Source of the DNA: Candidatus Moraniibacteriota bacterium
Lineage (GTDB): Bacteria > Patescibacteriota > Minisyncoccia > CAIUEV01 > JAHKAQ01
NCBI GenBank assembly: GCA_014729725.1
Contig: WJJL01000012.1
Coordinates: 1-35,978 of the forward strand
Length of the DNA: 35,978 nt
Direction of reading: 5' to 3'
Positions 2,190-9,048 of the stretch are shown here, piece by piece (within the stretch, counting starts at the first letter, position 1; every line of letters starts with the position of its first letter). The notes beneath the pieces are model-generated. The model did no database searches and had not been told where the DNA came from. It was given only the letters and a program-made list of their open reading frames with translations. The position numbers were made by a program, and so were the translations under genes.

Positions 2190-2218
2190 TTGACAGAAAA
2201 AAAATTTTCTATTATTTT
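2190..2218 (+). promoter_or_regulatory. Putative promoter of the ilv leader/operon
   Basis: A perfect -35 hexamer TTGACA (2190-2195) is followed after 17 bases by TATTTT (2213-2218). TATTAT at 2210-2215 is a better -10 but only 14 bases away. Transcription would begin near 2224-2226, about 20 bases before the leader peptide start, which fits an attenuator leader. Confidence 0.6.
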
Positions 2219-2246
2219 TTAAACAGTTAAGATTATTTTTTGATTG

Positions 2247-2315
2247 ATGAAAAAAATAAATTCAATTACAACCGGAACATTTTTGAGCTTGATTGTGGTA
2301 GTGGAATCCACCTGA
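2247..2315 (+). CDS. ilvL: ilv operon leader peptide (attenuation)
   Basis: A 22-codon reading frame starts with ATG at 2247 and stops with TGA at 2313-2315. It encodes a basic start (MKK), then ITTGT and the run LSLIVVVE. Twelve of 22 residues are Ile (3), Thr (4), Leu (2) or Val (3). Leader peptides of enteric ilv operons are likewise enriched in the amino acids the operon makes, and stalling at those codons controls transcription. It sits just after a promoter and inside a set of alternative hairpins ending in a terminator 96 bases before ilvE. No Shine-Dalgarno sequence precedes it, as for other genes here. It is too short for homology scoring; the case rests on composition plus RNA architecture. 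Confidence 0.75.
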   Translation: MKKINSITTGTFLSLIVVVEST

Positions 2316-2380
2316 AGTGGCCGGTTTTAAATTGAATTTAATTTTTACCAAGAACCAGGCCACCAAAGGGTGGTTTTTTT
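2258..2380 (+). promoter_or_regulatory. Transcription attenuator with mutually exclusive hairpins
   Basis: Three competing pairings can be drawn. (1) A protector stem pairs 2258-2275 with 2321-2339: about 17 base pairs, one mismatch, one bulge. A small local stem CCAC (2308-2311)/GTGG (2317-2320) adds to it. (2) An antiterminator pairs 2317-2326 with 2353-2363: 10 base pairs with one bulged A at 2357. (3) The terminator stem pairs 2357-2364 with 2369-2376. The antiterminator shares 2321-2326 with the protector and 2357-2363 with the terminator, so it excludes both. A ribosome stalled on Ile/Leu/Val/Thr codons would expose 2317-2326 and favour readthrough; one reaching the stop at 2313 would cover it and favour termination. 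Pairings are seen; the mechanism is inferred. Confidence 0.75.
2357..2380 (+). terminator. Rho-independent terminator (attenuator 3:4 stem)
   Basis: CCACC (2360-2364), loop AAAG, GGTGG (2369-2373), extended by two G-U pairs and one A-U pair, followed by seven T (2374-2380). It lies between the leader peptide stop and ilvE, where it would cut off the operon when antitermination fails. Confidence 0.8.
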
Positions 2381-2475
2381 AAATGCTTTTCAGAGGTTCC
2401 TTTATTACAAAACAACTAATCAGGACTGCTTATAATTTTCCAATTCAAATTAATTAAATTTTTTAATTTTAATTT

Positions 2476-3408
2476 ATGAAACATCAACCTCCCTACCCCT
2501 ACGCTTTTTTCGAAGGAAAAATCGTTAAAATTCAAAACGCCAAAGTCTCAATAATGATCAAAGGCATTCAATACGGCCAAGCTTTATTTGCCGGGATAAA
2601 AGGTTATTATGATCCAAAGAAAAATACAGTTAATATTTTTAGACTTAAAGATCATTATCAAAGAATGGTTGACGCTGTAAATATAGTCCCTTTTTCCTGG
2701 AAAATGAATTTTAAGGATTTTGAAAAGCTTTTTATAGAATTAACCAAAAAAAATAAGGTTAAAGAAAATTGTTATTATCGACCCAATGTTTACTCCAACG
2801 ATCCAACCATTGTTCCGATCTTTACCGAAAAGGACGATCAATTTTCTCTTTACATGATTCCCATGGGGGACTATCTGGATGTTAGCAAAGGAGTTAACCT
2901 TATGGTTTCGAGCTGGACTAAAGTTGCCGACAATATGATTTCCACTAAATCGAAAGTGAGTGGGATGTATGTTAATTCATCTTTGGCTAAATACGAAGCC
3001 GTGCAAAATGGCTATGATGACGCTATTATGTTAAATCCGGATGGTTCTGTCAGTGAAGGAAGCGCCGCCAATATTTTTGGAGTTAAAGACGGGGTGGTTT
3101 TTACCCCGCCTCTTGGTTCCAATAATTTGGCTGGTATAGCTAGGCGGACCGTTATCAAGCTTTTAAAAGAGGAGTTGGGAACAGAAGTCAAAGAACAGAA
3201 GTTCGACAGATCGCAGCTTTACACTTTTGATGAGCTTTTTATTAGTGGAACCGCTTCTCAGGTGGTTTGGATTAAAACAGTGGATAAAAGAACCATTGGT
3301 AAGGGAAAGATAGGGCCAATAACCAAACAAATCAAAGATCTGTATTTTGAAATAGTGAAAGGCAAAAACGATAAATATTCTTATTGGCTGACAAAGATTA
3401 AACTTTGA
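2476..3408 (+). CDS. ilvE: Branched-chain amino acid aminotransferase
   Basis: This 310-residue class IV PLP aminotransferase performs the last (reversible) step, moving the amino group from glutamate to the 2-oxo acids of Val, Ile and Leu. The PLP lysine is most likely Lys160 in STKSKVSGMY, followed by the family-typical NSSLAKYEA and by the SEGSAANIF phosphate-binding segment (193-201). GTASQVVWI near 258-267 corresponds to the GTAxE/Q region. The length is normal. It is the first gene after the attenuator and lies 26 bases before ilvD. The ATG is preceded only by A/T-rich sequence. A D-amino-acid or 4-amino-4-deoxychorismate-type relative is possible by fold, but the ilv context makes IlvE by far the best call. 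Confidence 0.92.
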   Translation: MKHQPPYPYAFFEGKIVKIQNAKVSIMIKGIQYGQALFAGIKGYYDPKKNTVNIFRLKDHYQRMVDAVNIVPFSWKMNFKDFEKLFIELTKKNKVKENCYYRPNVYSNDPTIVPIFTEKDDQFSLYMIPMGDYLDVSKGVNLMVSSWTKVADNMISTKSKVSGMYVNSSLAKYEAVQNGYDDAIMLNPDGSVSEGSAANIFGVKDGVVFTPPLGSNNLAGIARRTVIKLLKEELGTEVKEQKFDRSQLYTFDELFISGTASQVVWIKTVDKRTIGKGKIGPITKQIKDLYFEIVKGKNDKYSYWLTKIKL

Positions 3409-3434
3409 TTTTTAATTTAAATTAAATAAAAATA

Positions 3435-5051
3435 ATGCAATTACCATCTGACAAATTAAAAAAAGATACCGCCACTATGCCACATAGGGCGCTACTTAGA
3501 GCAGCCGGATTAAAAGACAGCGATTTTAAAAAACCCTTTATCGGTGTGGCGAATTCCTTTAACGATTTAGTTCCCGGCCATATCCATTTAAACGAGCTGA
3601 CCAAAGAGGTTAAAAGGGGTATTGAGGATGGGGGAGGAGTTCCTTTGGAATGGGGGGTTCCCGGGGTTTGCGATGGAGTTGCCATGTTTGTGGAAATGCG
3701 ACTTTCCTTGCCCTCGCGTGATCATATTGCCGATAATATTGAAATAATGACGCTTTCTCATAGTCTTGACGGTTGGGTTGGAGTGACTAATTGCGATAAA
3801 ATCACCCCTGGAATGCTTATGGCAGCCGCTCGGCTTAATCTACCCTCTATTATTTTAACCGGCGGGCCGATGAAAGCGGGAAAAGTTAAAGGAAAAAAAA
3901 TGGATGTAATTTCTAATTTTGAAGCGGTTGGAGCGATCAGTTCGGGAAAAATCAAGCAAAAGCAAGCTTATGAAATTGAATGCAAATCCTGTCCCGGAGC
4001 CGGATCCTGTGCCGGACTTTTTACCGCCAATTCCATGGCTTGTATGACAGAGGTTTTGGGAATGAGTTTAACTGGTTGCGCCACTACTCTTGCACTTGAT
4101 CCTAAAAAGAAAAAACAGGCTTATGAATCTGGGAAAAAAGCAGTGGAACTGGTTAAAAAACAAATCAAACCAAAAAATATAATGATCAAAGAGGCCTTTG
4201 AAAACGCGGTTAGGGTGGATATGGCTATCGGCGGCTCTACTAACACGGCGCTTCATTTACCGGCTATAGCTCGAGAAGCCGCAATTAAATTACCCTTAAC
4301 TTTATTTGACAAATTAGCCAAACAGACTCCCAATATTTGCCATATTAGACCGGCGGGTCCTTATATGATGGAAGACTTAGATAAAGCCGGCGGGATCCCC
4401 GCGGTTTTAAAGAGATTGCAAAAATTTCTTAAAAGTTCCAGAACCGTAAACAATAAGGATATAAAAGACATTGCCAAAACGGCTAAAGTCAAAGACAGTC
4501 AAATAATTCGTCCTTTAAGCAAACCTTTTTATAAAGAGGGGGGAATCGCGGTTTTAAAAGGTAATATCGCTAATAGTTCGGTGATAAAACAGACTGCTGT
4601 TGAACCGGAAATGATGAAATTCAGCGGCCCGGCTAAAGTTTTTAATAACGAACAGGCGATTCTGGATGCGGTAAAGAATAAAAAAATTCAAGACGGGGAT
4701 GTGGTTGTTATTAATTTTATGGGTCCGGCCGGAGCTCCGGGAATGCCGGAAATGCTTACCCCCACCGCTGCCATCAGCGGAGCCGGTTTAAAAGTGGCGC
4801 TTTTAACGGACGGTCGGTTTTCCGGTGGCACCAGGGGAGCTTGTATCGGTCATATTGAACCAGAAGCTTATAATAAAGGGGTTATCGGGCTTGTTAAGAA
4901 TGGCGATATTATTGAGATTGACATTCCCAAAAGAAAGCTAAATGTGAAATTAAGTCAATCGGAAATTATCAAAAGGAAGAAAAATTTTAAACGACCTAAA
5001 CGAAAAACCACCGCTTTTATGGAAAAATTCAGGAATGATTATAGTGATTAA
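3435..5051 (+). CDS. ilvD: Dihydroxy-acid dehydratase
   Basis: This 538-residue IlvD/Edd-family Fe-S dehydratase converts 2,3-dihydroxy-isovalerate or -methylvalerate to the 2-oxo acid. Hallmarks are PHRALLRAAGL (16-25), NSFNDLVPGH (40-49), NCDKITPGML (119-128; cluster Cys120, and Lys122 is the position carboxylated in the family) and CPGAGSCAGLFTAN (186-199; Cys192). NSF at the position of NTC in [2Fe-2S] enzymes suggests the other, [4Fe-4S]-like subgroup. The usual AMGHEGMR segment reads AMFVEMR here, one residue shorter and without the His, which is unusual. A 157-base gap separates it from ilvB, the largest gap in the operon. Confidence 0.93.
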   Translation: MQLPSDKLKKDTATMPHRALLRAAGLKDSDFKKPFIGVANSFNDLVPGHIHLNELTKEVKRGIEDGGGVPLEWGVPGVCDGVAMFVEMRLSLPSRDHIADNIEIMTLSHSLDGWVGVTNCDKITPGMLMAAARLNLPSIILTGGPMKAGKVKGKKMDVISNFEAVGAISSGKIKQKQAYEIECKSCPGAGSCAGLFTANSMACMTEVLGMSLTGCATTLALDPKKKKQAYESGKKAVELVKKQIKPKNIMIKEAFENAVRVDMAIGGSTNTALHLPAIAREAAIKLPLTLFDKLAKQTPNICHIRPAGPYMMEDLDKAGGIPAVLKRLQKFLKSSRTVNNKDIKDIAKTAKVKDSQIIRPLSKPFYKEGGIAVLKGNIANSSVIKQTAVEPEMMKFSGPAKVFNNEQAILDAVKNKKIQDGDVVVINFMGPAGAPGMPEMLTPTAAISGAGLKVALLTDGRFSGGTRGACIGHIEPEAYNKGVIGLVKNGDIIEIDIPKRKLNVKLSQSEIIKRKKNFKRPKRKTTAFMEKFRNDYSD

Positions 5052-5153
5052 TTTATAAATAGCGTTGGCTTTTGGTTTAGGTCCTTTTTCAGTCGGCCGG
5101 CGGGTAGAGGGAATGAATCTTAGCAATCAATATTATCCATAATTTTTAATAGC

Positions 5154-5187
5154 AATTCCTAAAACTGATTATTTATTTTAAGGAATT
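5154..5187 (+). promoter_or_regulatory. Hairpin upstream of ilvB
   Basis: AATTCCTAAAA (5154-5164) pairs with TTTTAAGGAATT (5176-5187), leaving one bulged A and an 11-base loop, 21 bases before the ilvB start. No T-run follows, so it is not an intrinsic terminator. It may be a processing or translational control structure in the 157-base ilvD-ilvB gap. The rest of that gap shows nothing I can name. Confidence 0.35.
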
Positions 5188-5208
5188 TTAAATTTTAATA
5201 AATTTTAT

Positions 5209-6897
5209 ATGACAGGCGCAGATATTTTACTTAAATCATTGATAAAAGAAAAAGTCGAAATAATTTTCGGCTATCCGGGAGGGGTTACCATTCCCCTGCA
5301 TGACAAATTAAAGGATTATCCGCAAATTAAGCATATTTTGCCAAGGCATGAACAAGGAGGGGCTATGATGGCGGATGGTTATTTTCGTCGAAGCGGGAAA
5401 GTTGGGGTTTGCCTTTCCACTTCCGGTCCAGGAGCCACTAATTTAATCACCGGAGTTGCCAACGCTTATATGGATTCAGTGGGAATGGTGGTAATTACTT
5501 GTCAGGTGGCTACCAATATGGTTGGAACCGATGCTTTTCAGGAAGTGGACATTACTGGAATTACTCAGCATATAACCAAACACAATTATTTTGTGGAAAA
5601 GGTTGAACATTTACCAAGGATTATTAAGGAAGCTTTTTATTTGGCTTCCACCGGCCGGCCCAGACCGGTCCATATCGATATTCCAGTGGATGTTTTAAAG
5701 GCGGAAGCGGAGAGATTTGATTATCCGAAAAAAGTTAATATTCCCGGATATTGCCTCCCTGAAAAAACAGATCCTAAAAAAATTGAACAAGCGGTGGAAT
5801 TGATTAAAAAATCAGCTCGGCCGGTGGCGCTTGTTGGTCATGGAGTGGCGATTTCCAAAGCGGAAAAACAATTAATGAAATTTGTGGAAAGCTGCGACAT
5901 TCCGGTAATTACTACTTTGCTTGGAATTGGCTCTATTCAGGAGGATCATAGATTAAGTTTTGGGATGCTCGGGATGCATGGAATGGCTTGGGCCAATTAT
6001 GCGGTAAGCAATGCGGATTTATTGATCGGAGTTGGCCTTAGATTTGATGATCGTATTACGGGGCGGATCGAGGAATTTGCCCAGGATGCCAATGTTATTC
6101 ATATCGATATAGATAAGGCTGAAATTGGTAAAAATAAAGTGGTGGATATTGGTCTTTTGGGTGATTGCAAAACCATTTTAACCAAAATTAATCAAAAAAA
6201 TCCTCAAAAATCTCACAAAGAATGGATAAATCAGATAAGAAAATGGGAAAAAGAAACTCAATTGGGAAAAATAAAAAAACAGGTGCGGTTGAAAAAATCC
6301 GATCATTTAATGGCTCAAGATATTATTGCTCAAATTGATAAACAAACCAGAGGTATGGCCGTGATCACAAGTGATGTAGGCCAAAATCAAATGTGGAGCG
6401 CTCAATATTATAAATATAAAAAACCCAATCAACTTTTAAGTTCCGGTGGTCTAGGTGCTATGGGCTTCGGTCTACCCGCCTCTATTGGAGCAAAATTCGC
6501 CACGCCTAAAAGCGATGTTTGGGCTATAATCGGTGACGGCGGTTTCCAGATGAATATTCAGGAATTGGGAACTATTATGGAATATAAATTGCCTGTTAAA
6601 ATTGTTATTTTAAATAACGGCTATTTAGGAATGGTAAGACAGTGGCAGGAGTTGTTTTATAAAAAAAATTATTGCTCCACCAGGTTGATAAATCCCAATT
6701 TTGTCCAAATCGCCAAAGCTTATGATATTGAAGCTTATCGAATTAAAGATATGAAAAATGCCGAAAAATATATTAAAAAAGCGGCAGCCTACAAAAAACC
6801 CATATTATTGGAATTTGTAATCGGTCAGGAAGATTGCGTCTTCCCGATGGTGCCTCCAGGAAACACTTTAAAAGAAACTATAATTAAAAGAAAATAA
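5209..6897 (+). CDS. ilvB: Acetolactate/acetohydroxyacid synthase large subunit
   Basis: This 562-residue ThDP enzyme condenses pyruvate with pyruvate or 2-oxobutyrate to start Val/Leu or Ile synthesis. The N-terminal Pyr domain carries the catalytic Glu48 in RHEQGG and the TSGPGATNL segment. A central domain follows. The C-terminal PP domain has the ThDP/Mg motif GDGGFQM (from ~442) through NNGYLGMVRQWQ. The protein is full length and directly followed (2 bases between) by the regulatory subunit gene, so the two are almost certainly co-translated. The ilvN partner and operon rule out a catabolic acetolactate synthase or another ThDP decarboxylase. Confidence 0.95.
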   Translation: MTGADILLKSLIKEKVEIIFGYPGGVTIPLHDKLKDYPQIKHILPRHEQGGAMMADGYFRRSGKVGVCLSTSGPGATNLITGVANAYMDSVGMVVITCQVATNMVGTDAFQEVDITGITQHITKHNYFVEKVEHLPRIIKEAFYLASTGRPRPVHIDIPVDVLKAEAERFDYPKKVNIPGYCLPEKTDPKKIEQAVELIKKSARPVALVGHGVAISKAEKQLMKFVESCDIPVITTLLGIGSIQEDHRLSFGMLGMHGMAWANYAVSNADLLIGVGLRFDDRITGRIEEFAQDANVIHIDIDKAEIGKNKVVDIGLLGDCKTILTKINQKNPQKSHKEWINQIRKWEKETQLGKIKKQVRLKKSDHLMAQDIIAQIDKQTRGMAVITSDVGQNQMWSAQYYKYKKPNQLLSSGGLGAMGFGLPASIGAKFATPKSDVWAIIGDGGFQMNIQELGTIMEYKLPVKIVILNNGYLGMVRQWQELFYKKNYCSTRLINPNFVQIAKAYDIEAYRIKDMKNAEKYIKKAAAYKKPILLEFVIGQEDCVFPMVPPGNTLKETIIKRK

Positions 6898-6899
6898 CC

Positions 6900-7391
6900 A
6901 TGACCACTAAAAGAAATCAACAAATTGTTTTAATTAAAGTAGAGGATAAACCCGGAGTTTTGAGTAAAATCTCCTCACTGTGTCGAAGAAGAAGGTACAA
7001 TATTAAGAGTTTGACAGTCGGCACTACGGATAAAAAGGGATTATCTCAAATCACTTTGGTTTTTTCCAAAGAAGAAGAGAGAATTCAAAATATCGCCAAC
7101 CAGATTGATAAACTAATCGAGGTTATTGAAGTGGAAGTGGTAAATCCCAGAAATGTTATCGATAAAGAGGTAATTCTTTTAATCGCTAAAAACGGGCGTT
7201 TGGAGGAATATATTTTCAAAAAATCTACTTCTTATGATATAAATGTAAGAACAATAAACGAAATACAAGGCAATCCGGTTTATGAGATTTTAGGGGAAGG
7301 GGGAGCCATAGAGCTATTTTTGGATGGGATTGATCTAAAAAATGATGTCGTTAAAATGGTAAGAAGCGGTTTGATAGCTTTAAAAATTTAA
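6900..7391 (+). CDS. ilvN: Acetolactate synthase small (regulatory) subunit
   Basis: This 163-residue ACT-domain subunit activates the large subunit and, in known enzymes, confers valine feedback inhibition. The ACT domain covers ~8-80: VEDKPGVLSKISSLCRRR...YNIKSLTVG, with the Gly-Val-Leu turn and the Asn-Ile-x-Ser-Leu segment where the effector binds. The C-terminal half (~85-163) is the usual IlvN/IlvH extension. The length fits the family. It starts 2 bases after the ilvB stop and ends 7 bases before the nitroreductase gene. There is therefore probably a second level of control besides the attenuator. Confidence 0.94.
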   Translation: MTTKRNQQIVLIKVEDKPGVLSKISSLCRRRRYNIKSLTVGTTDKKGLSQITLVFSKEEERIQNIANQIDKLIEVIEVEVVNPRNVIDKEVILLIAKNGRLEEYIFKKSTSYDINVRTINEIQGNPVYEILGEGGAIELFLDGIDLKNDVVKMVRSGLIALKI

Positions 7392-7398
7392 TTTTTCT

Positions 7399-7983
7399 AT
7401 GCGTTTTAAAGATTTGGTTAAAAAAAATCGTTCCTACAGACGTTTTAAAAGCGGGGTTTTAATTAAAAGAGATTTTTTGGAAGAATTAGTTCAAGTCAGC
7501 CGCTTTACGCCTTCTTCCAGAAATTTGCAGCCCTTAAGGTATTATTTGGCTTTTAATAAAAAGCAATGTGATAGTATTTTTCAGTGTTTGGGTTGGGCCA
7601 AGAATTTAAGAAACTGGAAAGGGCCGGAAAAAAATAAGAAACCCTCGGCTTACATTGTGATTTTATTTGATAAGAAAAGAGCTCAAGAGCTTGGATCAAA
7701 TGTTAATTTTGATGTTGGGATCAGCGCCCAGACCATGCTTTTAGCGGCTGCTGTTAAAGGATATTGCGGCTGTATGTTGGCTTCAGTTAATAAAGTTAAA
7801 TTAACTCGGAGTCTAAATATTTCCGATAAGCTGGAAATTGCTTTAGTGGTTGCTTTAGGAAAAAAAGGTGAAAGGATTGTTTTAGAGGATATAGATAAAA
7901 ATCAAGATACTATGTATTATAGGGATAATCAGGATATTCATCATGTTCCCAAAATCGTAAAAAAAGATTTAATAATTAACTAA
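7399..7983 (+). CDS. Nitroreductase-family flavoprotein inside the ilv operon
   Basis: This 194-residue single-domain protein matches the FMN-dependent nitroreductase fold. The N-terminal NRSYRRFKSG (9-18) gives the Arg-rich phosphate-binding start, and FTPSSRNLQPLRYY (~36-49) the flavin-contacting SS.N.QPW-like segment (QPLRYY here). GYCGCMLASVNK (~116-127) corresponds to the conserved GLGSCW.. segment. It lies 7 bases after ilvN and 6 bases before ilvC, so it must be co-transcribed with the ilv genes. The physiological substrate is unknown for most such proteins. The position suggests a redox role in amino acid metabolism, but nothing in the sequence names it. Confidence 0.8.
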   Translation: MRFKDLVKKNRSYRRFKSGVLIKRDFLEELVQVSRFTPSSRNLQPLRYYLAFNKKQCDSIFQCLGWAKNLRNWKGPEKNKKPSAYIVILFDKKRAQELGSNVNFDVGISAQTMLLAAAVKGYCGCMLASVNKVKLTRSLNISDKLEIALVVALGKKGERIVLEDIDKNQDTMYYRDNQDIHHVPKIVKKDLIIN

Positions 7984-7989
7984 TTTGAC

Positions 7990-9048
7990 ATGGCAAAAAT
8001 TAATTTTGGCGGGGTGGAAGAGGAAGTGGTAACCAGAGAAGAATTCCCGCTGGAAAAAGCAAGAGAAGTTTTAAAAGACGAAAAAATAGCCGTAATCGGC
8101 TATGGGGTTCAAGGTCCGGGTCAGGCTTTGAATTTAAGAGATAACGGTTTTGATGTAATCGTGGGGCAGCGAAAAGGTGGCGCTTCCTGGGAAAAAGCGA
8201 TTGAGGACGGTTGGGTGGAAGGCGAAACTCTTTTTGAGATTGAGGAGGCTTGTGATAAAGCCACCTTTATTATGTATCTTTTATCAGATGCCGGACAAAA
8301 AGATCAGTGGCCTGTTATTAAGAAATACTTAACTCCCGGAAAAACCTTGTTTTTCTCCCATGGTTTTTCTGTAACCTACAATGATTTGACCGGGGTGGTT
8401 CCTCCTGCCGGGATAGATGTGATTTTAGTGGCTCCCAAAGGCTCCGGTTTAACAGTTAGAATAAACTATCTGGAAGGTAGTGGAATTAACAGTAGTTTTG
8501 CGGTTTATCAGGATGCCAGCGGAAAAGCCCAAGAAAAGGCGAAAGCTGTCGGTATTGGAATAGGATCCGGTTATTTATTCCCCACCACTTTTAAAAAAGA
8601 AGTTTACAGCGACTTAACAGGAGAGAGGGGAATTTTACTGGGAGCCTTAGCCGGAGTTATGGAAGCTCAATACAATGAACTTAGAAAACACGGTCATAGT
8701 CCCAGCGAGGCTTTTAACGAAACCGTGGAGGAGTTAACTCAAAGTTTAATCAAGTTGGTTGGAGCCAAAGGAATGGACTGGATGTATTCCAACTGTAGCA
8801 CCACCGCTCAAAGAGGGGCGCTTGATTGGAAGGATAAGTTTAAAGAGGCGGTGGAACCGGTTTTCAAAAAACTTTACGAAAGTGTAAAAAACGGTACTGA
8901 AGCTAAAATTGTTTTAGAAAAAAACAGTCAGGAAAATTATCGCCAAGAATTAGACAAGGAATTAAAAGAGATGGGAGACAGCGAAATGTGGCAAACCGGA
9001 AAAAAGGTTAGAAAACTAAGACCGGAAAATTGGAAACAGGAAGCTTAA
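7990..9048 (+). CDS. ilvC: Ketol-acid reductoisomerase (fungal/Bacteroidota-like type)
   Basis: This 352-residue enzyme isomerises and reduces acetolactate or acetohydroxybutyrate with NAD(P)H. The Rossmann motif is GYGVQGPGQALNLRDNG (37-53), followed by VGQRKGGASWEKAIEDGW, whose length and sequence resemble the mitochondrial Ilv5 and Bacteroidota enzymes more than the E. coli or short actinobacterial forms. HGFS, APKGSG and the metal-site segment DLTGERGILLG are present, as are SPSEAFNETVEE and the C-terminal KVRKLRPEN, again as in Ilv5. It is the last operon gene. Its TAA shares the bases TTAA (9045-9048) with the stop of the convergent helicase gene, leaving no room for a terminator between them. 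Confidence 0.93.
   Translation: MAKINFGGVEEEVVTREEFPLEKAREVLKDEKIAVIGYGVQGPGQALNLRDNGFDVIVGQRKGGASWEKAIEDGWVEGETLFEIEEACDKATFIMYLLSDAGQKDQWPVIKKYLTPGKTLFFSHGFSVTYNDLTGVVPPAGIDVILVAPKGSGLTVRINYLEGSGINSSFAVYQDASGKAQEKAKAVGIGIGSGYLFPTTFKKEVYSDLTGERGILLGALAGVMEAQYNELRKHGHSPSEAFNETVEELTQSLIKLVGAKGMDWMYSNCSTTAQRGALDWKDKFKEAVEPVFKKLYESVKNGTEAKIVLEKNSQENYRQELDKELKEMGDSEMWQTGKKVRKLRPENWKQEA

Follow-up and report, generated by a model that had tools for sequence, protein, structure and literature searches.

Ribosome-mediated attenuation is a textbook mechanism, known from the enteric ilv, thr, his and trp operons. In Escherichia coli, the leaders of ilvGMEDA (ilvL) and ilvBN combine a peptide rich in branched-chain amino acids (BCAAs), a protector formed from its early codons, a mutually exclusive antiterminator and terminator, and ilv genes downstream. 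The Corynebacterium ilvB-II motif of ilvBNC carries a BCAA-enriched uORF of 15–17 codons with terminator/antiterminator hairpins (PMC10272879), and M. tuberculosis ilvB1 has a uORF-controlled leader (PMC13236596). Leaderless short-ORF attenuators that sense cysteine are reported from mycobacteria (Canestrari et al. 2020, as cited in PMC13236596). Other observations count against reading such a leader as a sensor: codon substitutions in the similar-looking leader of Streptomyces ilvB had no effect (PMC1262725), and leader ORFs can raise expression by re-initiation (PMC4833913). T-boxes (RF00230) also sense tRNA charging and choose between terminator and antiterminator, but they bind the tRNA directly, whereas the sensor proposed here is the translating ribosome.

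We analysed a leader upstream of ilvE in a window of 35,978 nucleotides (the whole stretch of DNA under study), and consider it very probable that it is a ribosome-mediated attenuator which adjusts expression of ilvEDBN-(nitroreductase)-ilvC to how much charged Ile, Val and Leu tRNA, and perhaps Thr tRNA, is available. It shares the design of enteric ilvL and ilvBN described above, but belongs to another phylum, shows no sequence similarity to them, lacks a Shine-Dalgarno (SD) site, is shorter (22 codons), and has its antiterminator arm directly at the stop codon. With the Corynebacterium and M. tuberculosis leaders it has in common the short BCAA-rich uORF, the terminator/antiterminator pair and the ilv operon downstream; whereas ilvB-II of the Actinobacteria is conserved in sequence and structure within one genus, the leaders of Patescibacteria share only the logic. 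The mycobacterial cysteine attenuators, as far as the citing paper describes them, resemble some relatives of our leader in apparently starting at a 5′-terminal AUG; the window leader differs in its codons and in a 5′ UTR of about 22 nt.

The ilv operon and its leader elements

The window is one contig of a genome of 1.14 Mb (94.7% completeness). Reduced genome size, together with TGA-rich ilvD genes in genomes of the same phylum (17 and 24 in-frame TGA codons in G930 and G878, which we take to be as in Gracilibacteria/Absconditabacteria), points to a host within the Patescibacteria/CPR, in agreement with the initial annotation, which had judged a CPR bacterium likely. An IlvE search of genome contigs returned no CPR relative, and matched only Actinobacteria (mostly Actinomarina), Deinococcales and a few Pseudomonadota. 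The genes around the leader are as follows.

Ending at 2008: UMPH-1-like gene, about 350 nt before the terminator
2476–3408, + strand: ilvE, branched-chain aminotransferase (TIGR01122 / NF005146 above cut-off)
3435–5051, + strand: ilvD, dihydroxy-acid dehydratase
5209–6897, + strand: ilvB, acetohydroxyacid synthase large subunit
6900–7391, + strand: ilvN, acetohydroxyacid synthase small subunit (ACT domain)
7399–7983, + strand: nitroreductase-family gene, between ilvN and ilvC
7990–9048, + strand: ilvC, ketol-acid reductoisomerase

The operon (2476–9048) includes neither ilvA (threonine deaminase) nor leu genes, so the window does not show where 2-oxobutyrate comes from. Its nitroreductase-family gene is retained in a second genome of the family (G002) at 57% identity.

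Upstream of ilvE, the initial annotation had described a promoter, a 22-codon frame and three competing hairpins, all of which we located:

2190–2218, + strand: sigma-70-like promoter TTGACA-17-TATTTT (TTGACA 2190–2195, TATTTT 2213–2218)
2247–2315, + strand: leader peptide ORF of 22 codons, MKKINSITTGTFLSLIVVVEST-stop (ATG 2247–2249, TGA 2313–2315)
2258–2275, + strand: protector 5′ arm (region 1), leader codons 4–10, from the minimum-free-energy (MFE) fold and duplex energy
2317–2328, + strand: antiterminator 5′ arm GTGGCCGGTTTT, beginning 1 nt past the leader stop codon
2321–2339, + strand: protector 3′ arm (region 2), overlapping the antiterminator 5′ arm, from the MFE fold and duplex energy
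2351–2363, + strand: antiterminator 3′ arm AGAACC-A-GGCCAC (region 3)
2357–2380, + strand: intrinsic terminator (regions 3:4), 8-bp stem and seven T

The promoter has 10 of 12 consensus matches, and its −10 box ends 28 nt before the leader ATG, which gives the 5′ UTR of about 22 nt. Both amino-acid stretches of the earlier description are in frame: the I/L/V run (within LSLIVVVE) at codons 13–19 supplies the control codons Leu13, Leu15, Ile16 and Val17–19, and ITTGT at codons 7–11 adds Ile7, Thr8, Thr9 and Thr11. The antiterminator pairs GTGGCC with GGCCAC and, past one bulged A, GGTTTT with AGAACC, being somewhat longer than the 2317–2326/2353–2363 first proposed; protector and terminator lie where they had been placed, and the protector reaches beyond the listed arms in the MFE fold. 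The terminator reads AGGCCACC-AAAG-GGTGGTTT at 2357–2376, with the T run continuing to 2380. Only 41 nt separate the leader stop codon from the terminator, and 160 nt separate it from ilvE.

We compared these elements with shuffled sequence. Singly, the promoter match (25 sites found versus 23 expected) and the terminator count in the window (equal to that of shuffles) are not significant. Together, the elements exceed chance: a composite of an ORF with at least five I/L/V in eight codons, a terminator, and an antiterminator no more than 6 nt from the stop appeared in 0 of 3000 dinucleotide shuffles of 2190–2475. The protector duplex (−20.0 kcal/mol) was far stronger than the mean of shuffled leader codons (−8.6; p = 0.001), as was the antiterminator duplex (−14.9 versus −6.9 in shuffles; p = 0.0035). 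The MFE fold of 2225–2400, a check suggested by the initial annotation, gave z = −2.0, which is likewise not significant by itself.

Ribosome position and terminator folding

The RNA 3′ of the ribosome was folded codon by codon with a mask that, counted from the first base of the codon in the A site, extended 12 nt downstream, in an equilibrium-based model that assumes this 12-nt downstream footprint. The predicted probability of the terminator, P(terminator), was 0–0.05 with the A site on any of codons 2–19, all Ile, Leu and Val codons included, while the terminator's 5′ arm paired upstream; it was 0.91 at codon 22 and 0.90 at the stop codon. Untranslated RNA also terminated (P(terminator) 0.88), because the protector holds region 2. 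Mutual exclusivity of the antiterminator with both protector and terminator, as originally claimed, thus follows from the shared arms and from the ribosome-masked folding. Since stalling at Ile7 or at Thr8, Thr9 or Thr11 would act likewise, a threonine input to the attenuator is possible in this model.

These results suggest the following mechanism. Transcription would begin near 2225, and a ribosome would start the leader peptide without an SD site and trail RNA polymerase. With plentiful branched-chain aminoacyl-tRNAs, the ribosome would get as far as the stop codon (2313) and hide the antiterminator arm at 2317–2328 under its footprint; the terminator at 2357–2380 would then form, and transcription would stop before ilvE. 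A ribosome stalled on the Leu, Ile or Val codons 13–19 would leave 2317–2328 free to pair with 2351–2363, blocking the terminator and allowing the operon to be transcribed. Were the leader not translated, the protector (2258–2275/2321–2339) would keep region 2, and termination would be the default. We infer leader translation, coupling of ribosome and RNA polymerase, and the response of the operon to amino acids from this arrangement.

Leader peptides before biosynthetic genes in other Patescibacteria

We then compared the locus with other genomes. The only other member of the window's family with this ilv operon (G002; IlvE 64% identical) has the same order of elements: TTGACA, the leader MIASKNMRQLVKIIVLTP-stop, an antiterminator starting at the stop codon, the terminator GACCGCC-TATCC-GGCGGTT, and ilvE. 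The two leaders have no evident sequence similarity. Beyond this genome, 12 further leaders of the same design precede BCAA genes in the phylum, making, with the window, 14 leaders in 13 genomes of three classes. The leader peptides of the relatives, which have 10–18 codons versus 22 in the window, are as follows.

G189: MKPDLFANIIAIVVAT
G457 and G444: MKKLALSLLIIVIIIL
G478: MNFIRNSIIISVIIIAA
G741, before ilvB: MNASFVILVNVVGIPLN, read from an internal ATG
G741, second leader, before the thrC-like gene: MKNTIIIIDL
G1028: MKRLILIISVLIIIL
G1029: MHKFATIISIVVIIIF
G1030: MNKSFSIISFVIIDL
G931: MKYFAQAIIAIIIIL
G748: MNKNIIIISP
G816: MKNVSIIGIIINTRY

TTGACA or TTTACA is also found upstream of the leaders in G002, G189, G457, G478, G1028, G1029, G1030 and G931. 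Many other genomes with these BCAA genes showed no such leader; the device is therefore frequent in the phylum, not universal. The equivalents in at least 12 other genomes suggest that reduced CPR bacteria use the stalled-ribosome switch widely.

The leaders were gathered in two ways. A scan for stop-adjacent antiterminator/terminator pairs on both strands of 45 loci (662 kb) gave 24 candidate pairs, nine of them within 400 nt upstream of BCAA genes, a zone that makes up 3.1% of the scanned sequence (binomial P about 2e-8). At least five I/L/V codons in eight were present in 7/9 leaders of this zone versus 4/15 elsewhere, so that seven of the 11 I/L/V-rich leaders fall in it (P about 9e-9): those of the window, G002, G189, G457, G444, G478 and G741 (before ilvB). 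Across the candidate set, ILV scored highest among 1140 amino-acid triples. A candidate before rimO in the UGA-recoded genome G878 (L163) had no BCAA link and was dropped. For the second set, a thrC-like gene with a LeuA-type C-terminal domain served as bait in the G457 class, and the upstream regions were inspected. Most leaders were chosen by the same features that were later modelled; those of G1029, G931 and G748 were spotted visually from their Ile runs and not through the antiterminator score, and they also shift from the antiterminator towards the terminator at the leader end (G931 weakly, with P(terminator) 0.35 at the stop).

The bait gene, a threonine-synthase-like protein with a C-terminal LeuA-type (2-isopropylmalate synthase) domain, heads Patescibacteria BCAA operons (L094:1091–2929, L098:6645–8498, L103:10757–12694) and, of the 353 genomes in the G457 class, 37 match it, some over part of its length; this fusion could act in the Ile branch under feedback control. 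In some Patescibacteria, the leader peptide upstream of it seems to give way to T-box-like elements (L275:2565–2732, minus strand, in G736; L276, L281 and L290 by eye).

The recurrence of the design bears on the simplest alternative, that an ordinary intergenic terminator and a chance short frame are unrelated and that ilvE has its own promoter downstream of 2380. Promoter and terminator matches are singly at chance level in this AT-rich region, and Ile/Leu-rich short frames are common at low GC; even so, the composite is absent from the 3000 shuffles, the upstream gene already ends at 2008, about 350 nt before this terminator, and the same composite precedes BCAA genes in 12 other genomes with I/L/V as the best triple. 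We regard chance assembly as very improbable.

The initial annotation had looked to related leaders for retained Ile/Leu/Val codons and compensatory base pairs. The codons and the re-pairing stood, in the f157 relatives and in the logic of G002; the window leader itself has no close homologue, and its relatives are too few for column covariation. In f157 relatives the Ile run is retained while both protector arms are replaced and mostly still complementary, as judged by eye and from duplex energies rather than column counts, since a MAFFT alignment of six leaders misplaced the antiterminator arm. The protector arms are as follows.

G1028: AAACGTCTC/GAGACGTTT
G1029: ACAAGTTC/GAACTTGT
G1030: AACAAATCAT/ATGATTGTT, with a bulge
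G457: CGCGT..TCTCTTC/GGAGAGA..ACGCG
G931: AGGCT/AGCCT only, no better than shuffles

Most protectors of f157 relatives are singly at best marginal (p 0.02–0.15). Pooled over 13 leaders, the protector, which was not a selection feature, gave p = 8e-5; we set aside the pooled antiterminator value (p 1e-15), which selection inflates. Five leaders (those of G748, G816 and G931 and the two of G741) have a weak protector or none, and some leaders may depend on masking at the stop codon alone.

Four genomes (G658, G757, G478 and G439) have His-run leaders with the same kind of switch upstream of hisG, so that codon identity follows the operon. In G658 (L246, about 314 nt upstream of the hisG match), a TTGACA-like promoter is followed by the stand-alone leader MKAQFAQIHHHLLIPYMLLKKRQ-stop, a terminator and hisG. 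In G757 (L250:12023–12349), G478 (L244:7488–7823, minus strand) and G439 (L248:7651–7986, minus strand), a gene for YerC/YecD (TrpR-related) lies directly before hisG and ends in a C-terminal tail with a His run (AHHHTNT, VVHHHKSASSGKRVT and VVHQHHSTSSGKRVS, respectively). These genes score above the TIGR02531 cut-off, the domain ending at residue 99/108 or 91/111, and orthologues in G842, G867, G797 and G421 have no His-run tail. The regulator tail thus seems to serve as the leader peptide, an unusual arrangement. P(terminator) was 0.50–0.99 at the stop and at most 0.04 at the His codons, apart from the third His codon in two genomes (0.29 in G757, 0.91 in G658). Since His runs were what we looked for, all four are leads, not a statistic. 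A first scan of leaders up to 40 codons, covering runs of His, Trp, Phe, Thr, Arg and Cys, gave two Phe matches and one His match, before hisG of G757, and nothing for Trp, Thr, Arg or Cys; it missed most his cases because the frame was longer or the arm did not adjoin the stop.

This match of codons to genes speaks to another alternative, in which the leader ORF acts by being translated as such (coupling, re-initiation or mRNA shielding) and senses no Ile, Leu or Val. The Streptomyces substitutions and the re-initiation precedent (PMC1262725, PMC4833913) lend it some weight, but 160 nt from stop to ilvE is far for re-initiation, every BCAA leader found has an Ile or Ile/Val/Leu run just before its antiterminator, and the runs are of Ile alone before the threonine-synthase-like gene (G741 and G748) and of His before hisG; we give it little credence. 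Least probable is a tRNA- or metabolite-sensing riboswitch (a T-box or other class) beside an incidental ORF: T-box-like leaders do appear to precede some orthologous genes in the phylum (G736 L275, RF00230 E = 0.002, 30.3 bits, below gathering), but Rfam models of known leaders, T-boxes and riboswitches gave nothing in the window, whether at the gathering score or at looser thresholds (amino-acid families such as Leu_leader, Thr_leader and Phe_leader unmatched, the best being Phe_leader at 17 bits versus 55; matches at 2150–2480 at noise level, rli38 E 1.9 and Phe_leader E 2.3; RF00230 unmatched in the region even at E = 10), only 41 nt lie between stop and terminator, and the relatives' leaders, wholly different in sequence, keep their I/L/V codons, unlike an aptamer.

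A ribosome-mediated attenuator would account for the run of control codons, the terminator, the exclusive antiterminator and the protector, and for the conservation of codons and pairing in relatives. The likeness to enteric ilv/thr/leu attenuation first noted for this locus is borne out by the masked-ribosome switch and by the leaders of the same design in relatives.

Translation starts without Shine-Dalgarno sites

We investigated initiation, since the SD-less leader start had been raised as a puzzle for tight coupling of transcription and translation. An SD-like motif was found before none of the 20 window genes, nor before the leader. At −18 to −3, such motifs occur in 2/65 upstream regions in the window's class (8/65 further upstream) and in 10/322 in the G457 class (25 further upstream); the 16S 3′ end (L260) reads GGATCACCTCCTTT, with the anti-SD intact. 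Because genes there generally have no SD, the leader start is normal for its genome. NusG was present in 7/7 genomes tested. With SD-less starts the norm, the anti-SD intact and NusG present, the puzzle is resolved in part and sharpened on the side of coupling; the window leader would have a direct SD-less start on its UTR of roughly 22 nt.

In G1028, G1029, G1030 and G748, the −10 box ends 6–7 nt before the leader ATG, so that in these four the leader mRNA is probably leaderless, with the AUG at its 5′ end. By inspection, the second G741 leader, unranked by the scan, has a −10-like GATAAT ending 9 nt before its ATG. Across G457-class loci, TATAAT-like boxes peak 6–11 nt before the ATG of long ORFs, with a second peak at 21–32 nt, as if leaderless mRNAs were common in this class.

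The mechanism is known; its presence in Patescibacteria and its SD-free use appear new. Within the open-access literature covered, which takes in few subscription papers and no preprints, nothing relevant turned up when Patescibacteria, CPR or Parcubacteria were searched for leader peptides or attenuation; the initial annotation, too, had known of no description there. A broader reading, to which we assign an even chance, is that SD-free, often leaderless attenuation is widespread for BCAA and His synthesis in the phylum, arose many times in unrelated sequences, alternates with T-box-like leaders upstream of one and the same gene, and recruited the C-terminal tail of a YerC/TrpR-like regulator in some his operons. 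If true, transcription and translation would have to be tightly coupled in bacteria where Shine-Dalgarno signals are hardly used.

The usual picture of CPR bacteria is one of auxotrophic symbionts that regulate little. With an attenuator coupled to translation, members of the group that retain BCAA synthesis would also be monitoring the charging of their own tRNAs, and the first ribosome would have to load promptly behind RNA polymerase without SD sites. Being short and portable, these leader sequences could serve to probe coupling, and initiation that is SD-free or leaderless, in a phylum whose members are difficult to grow.
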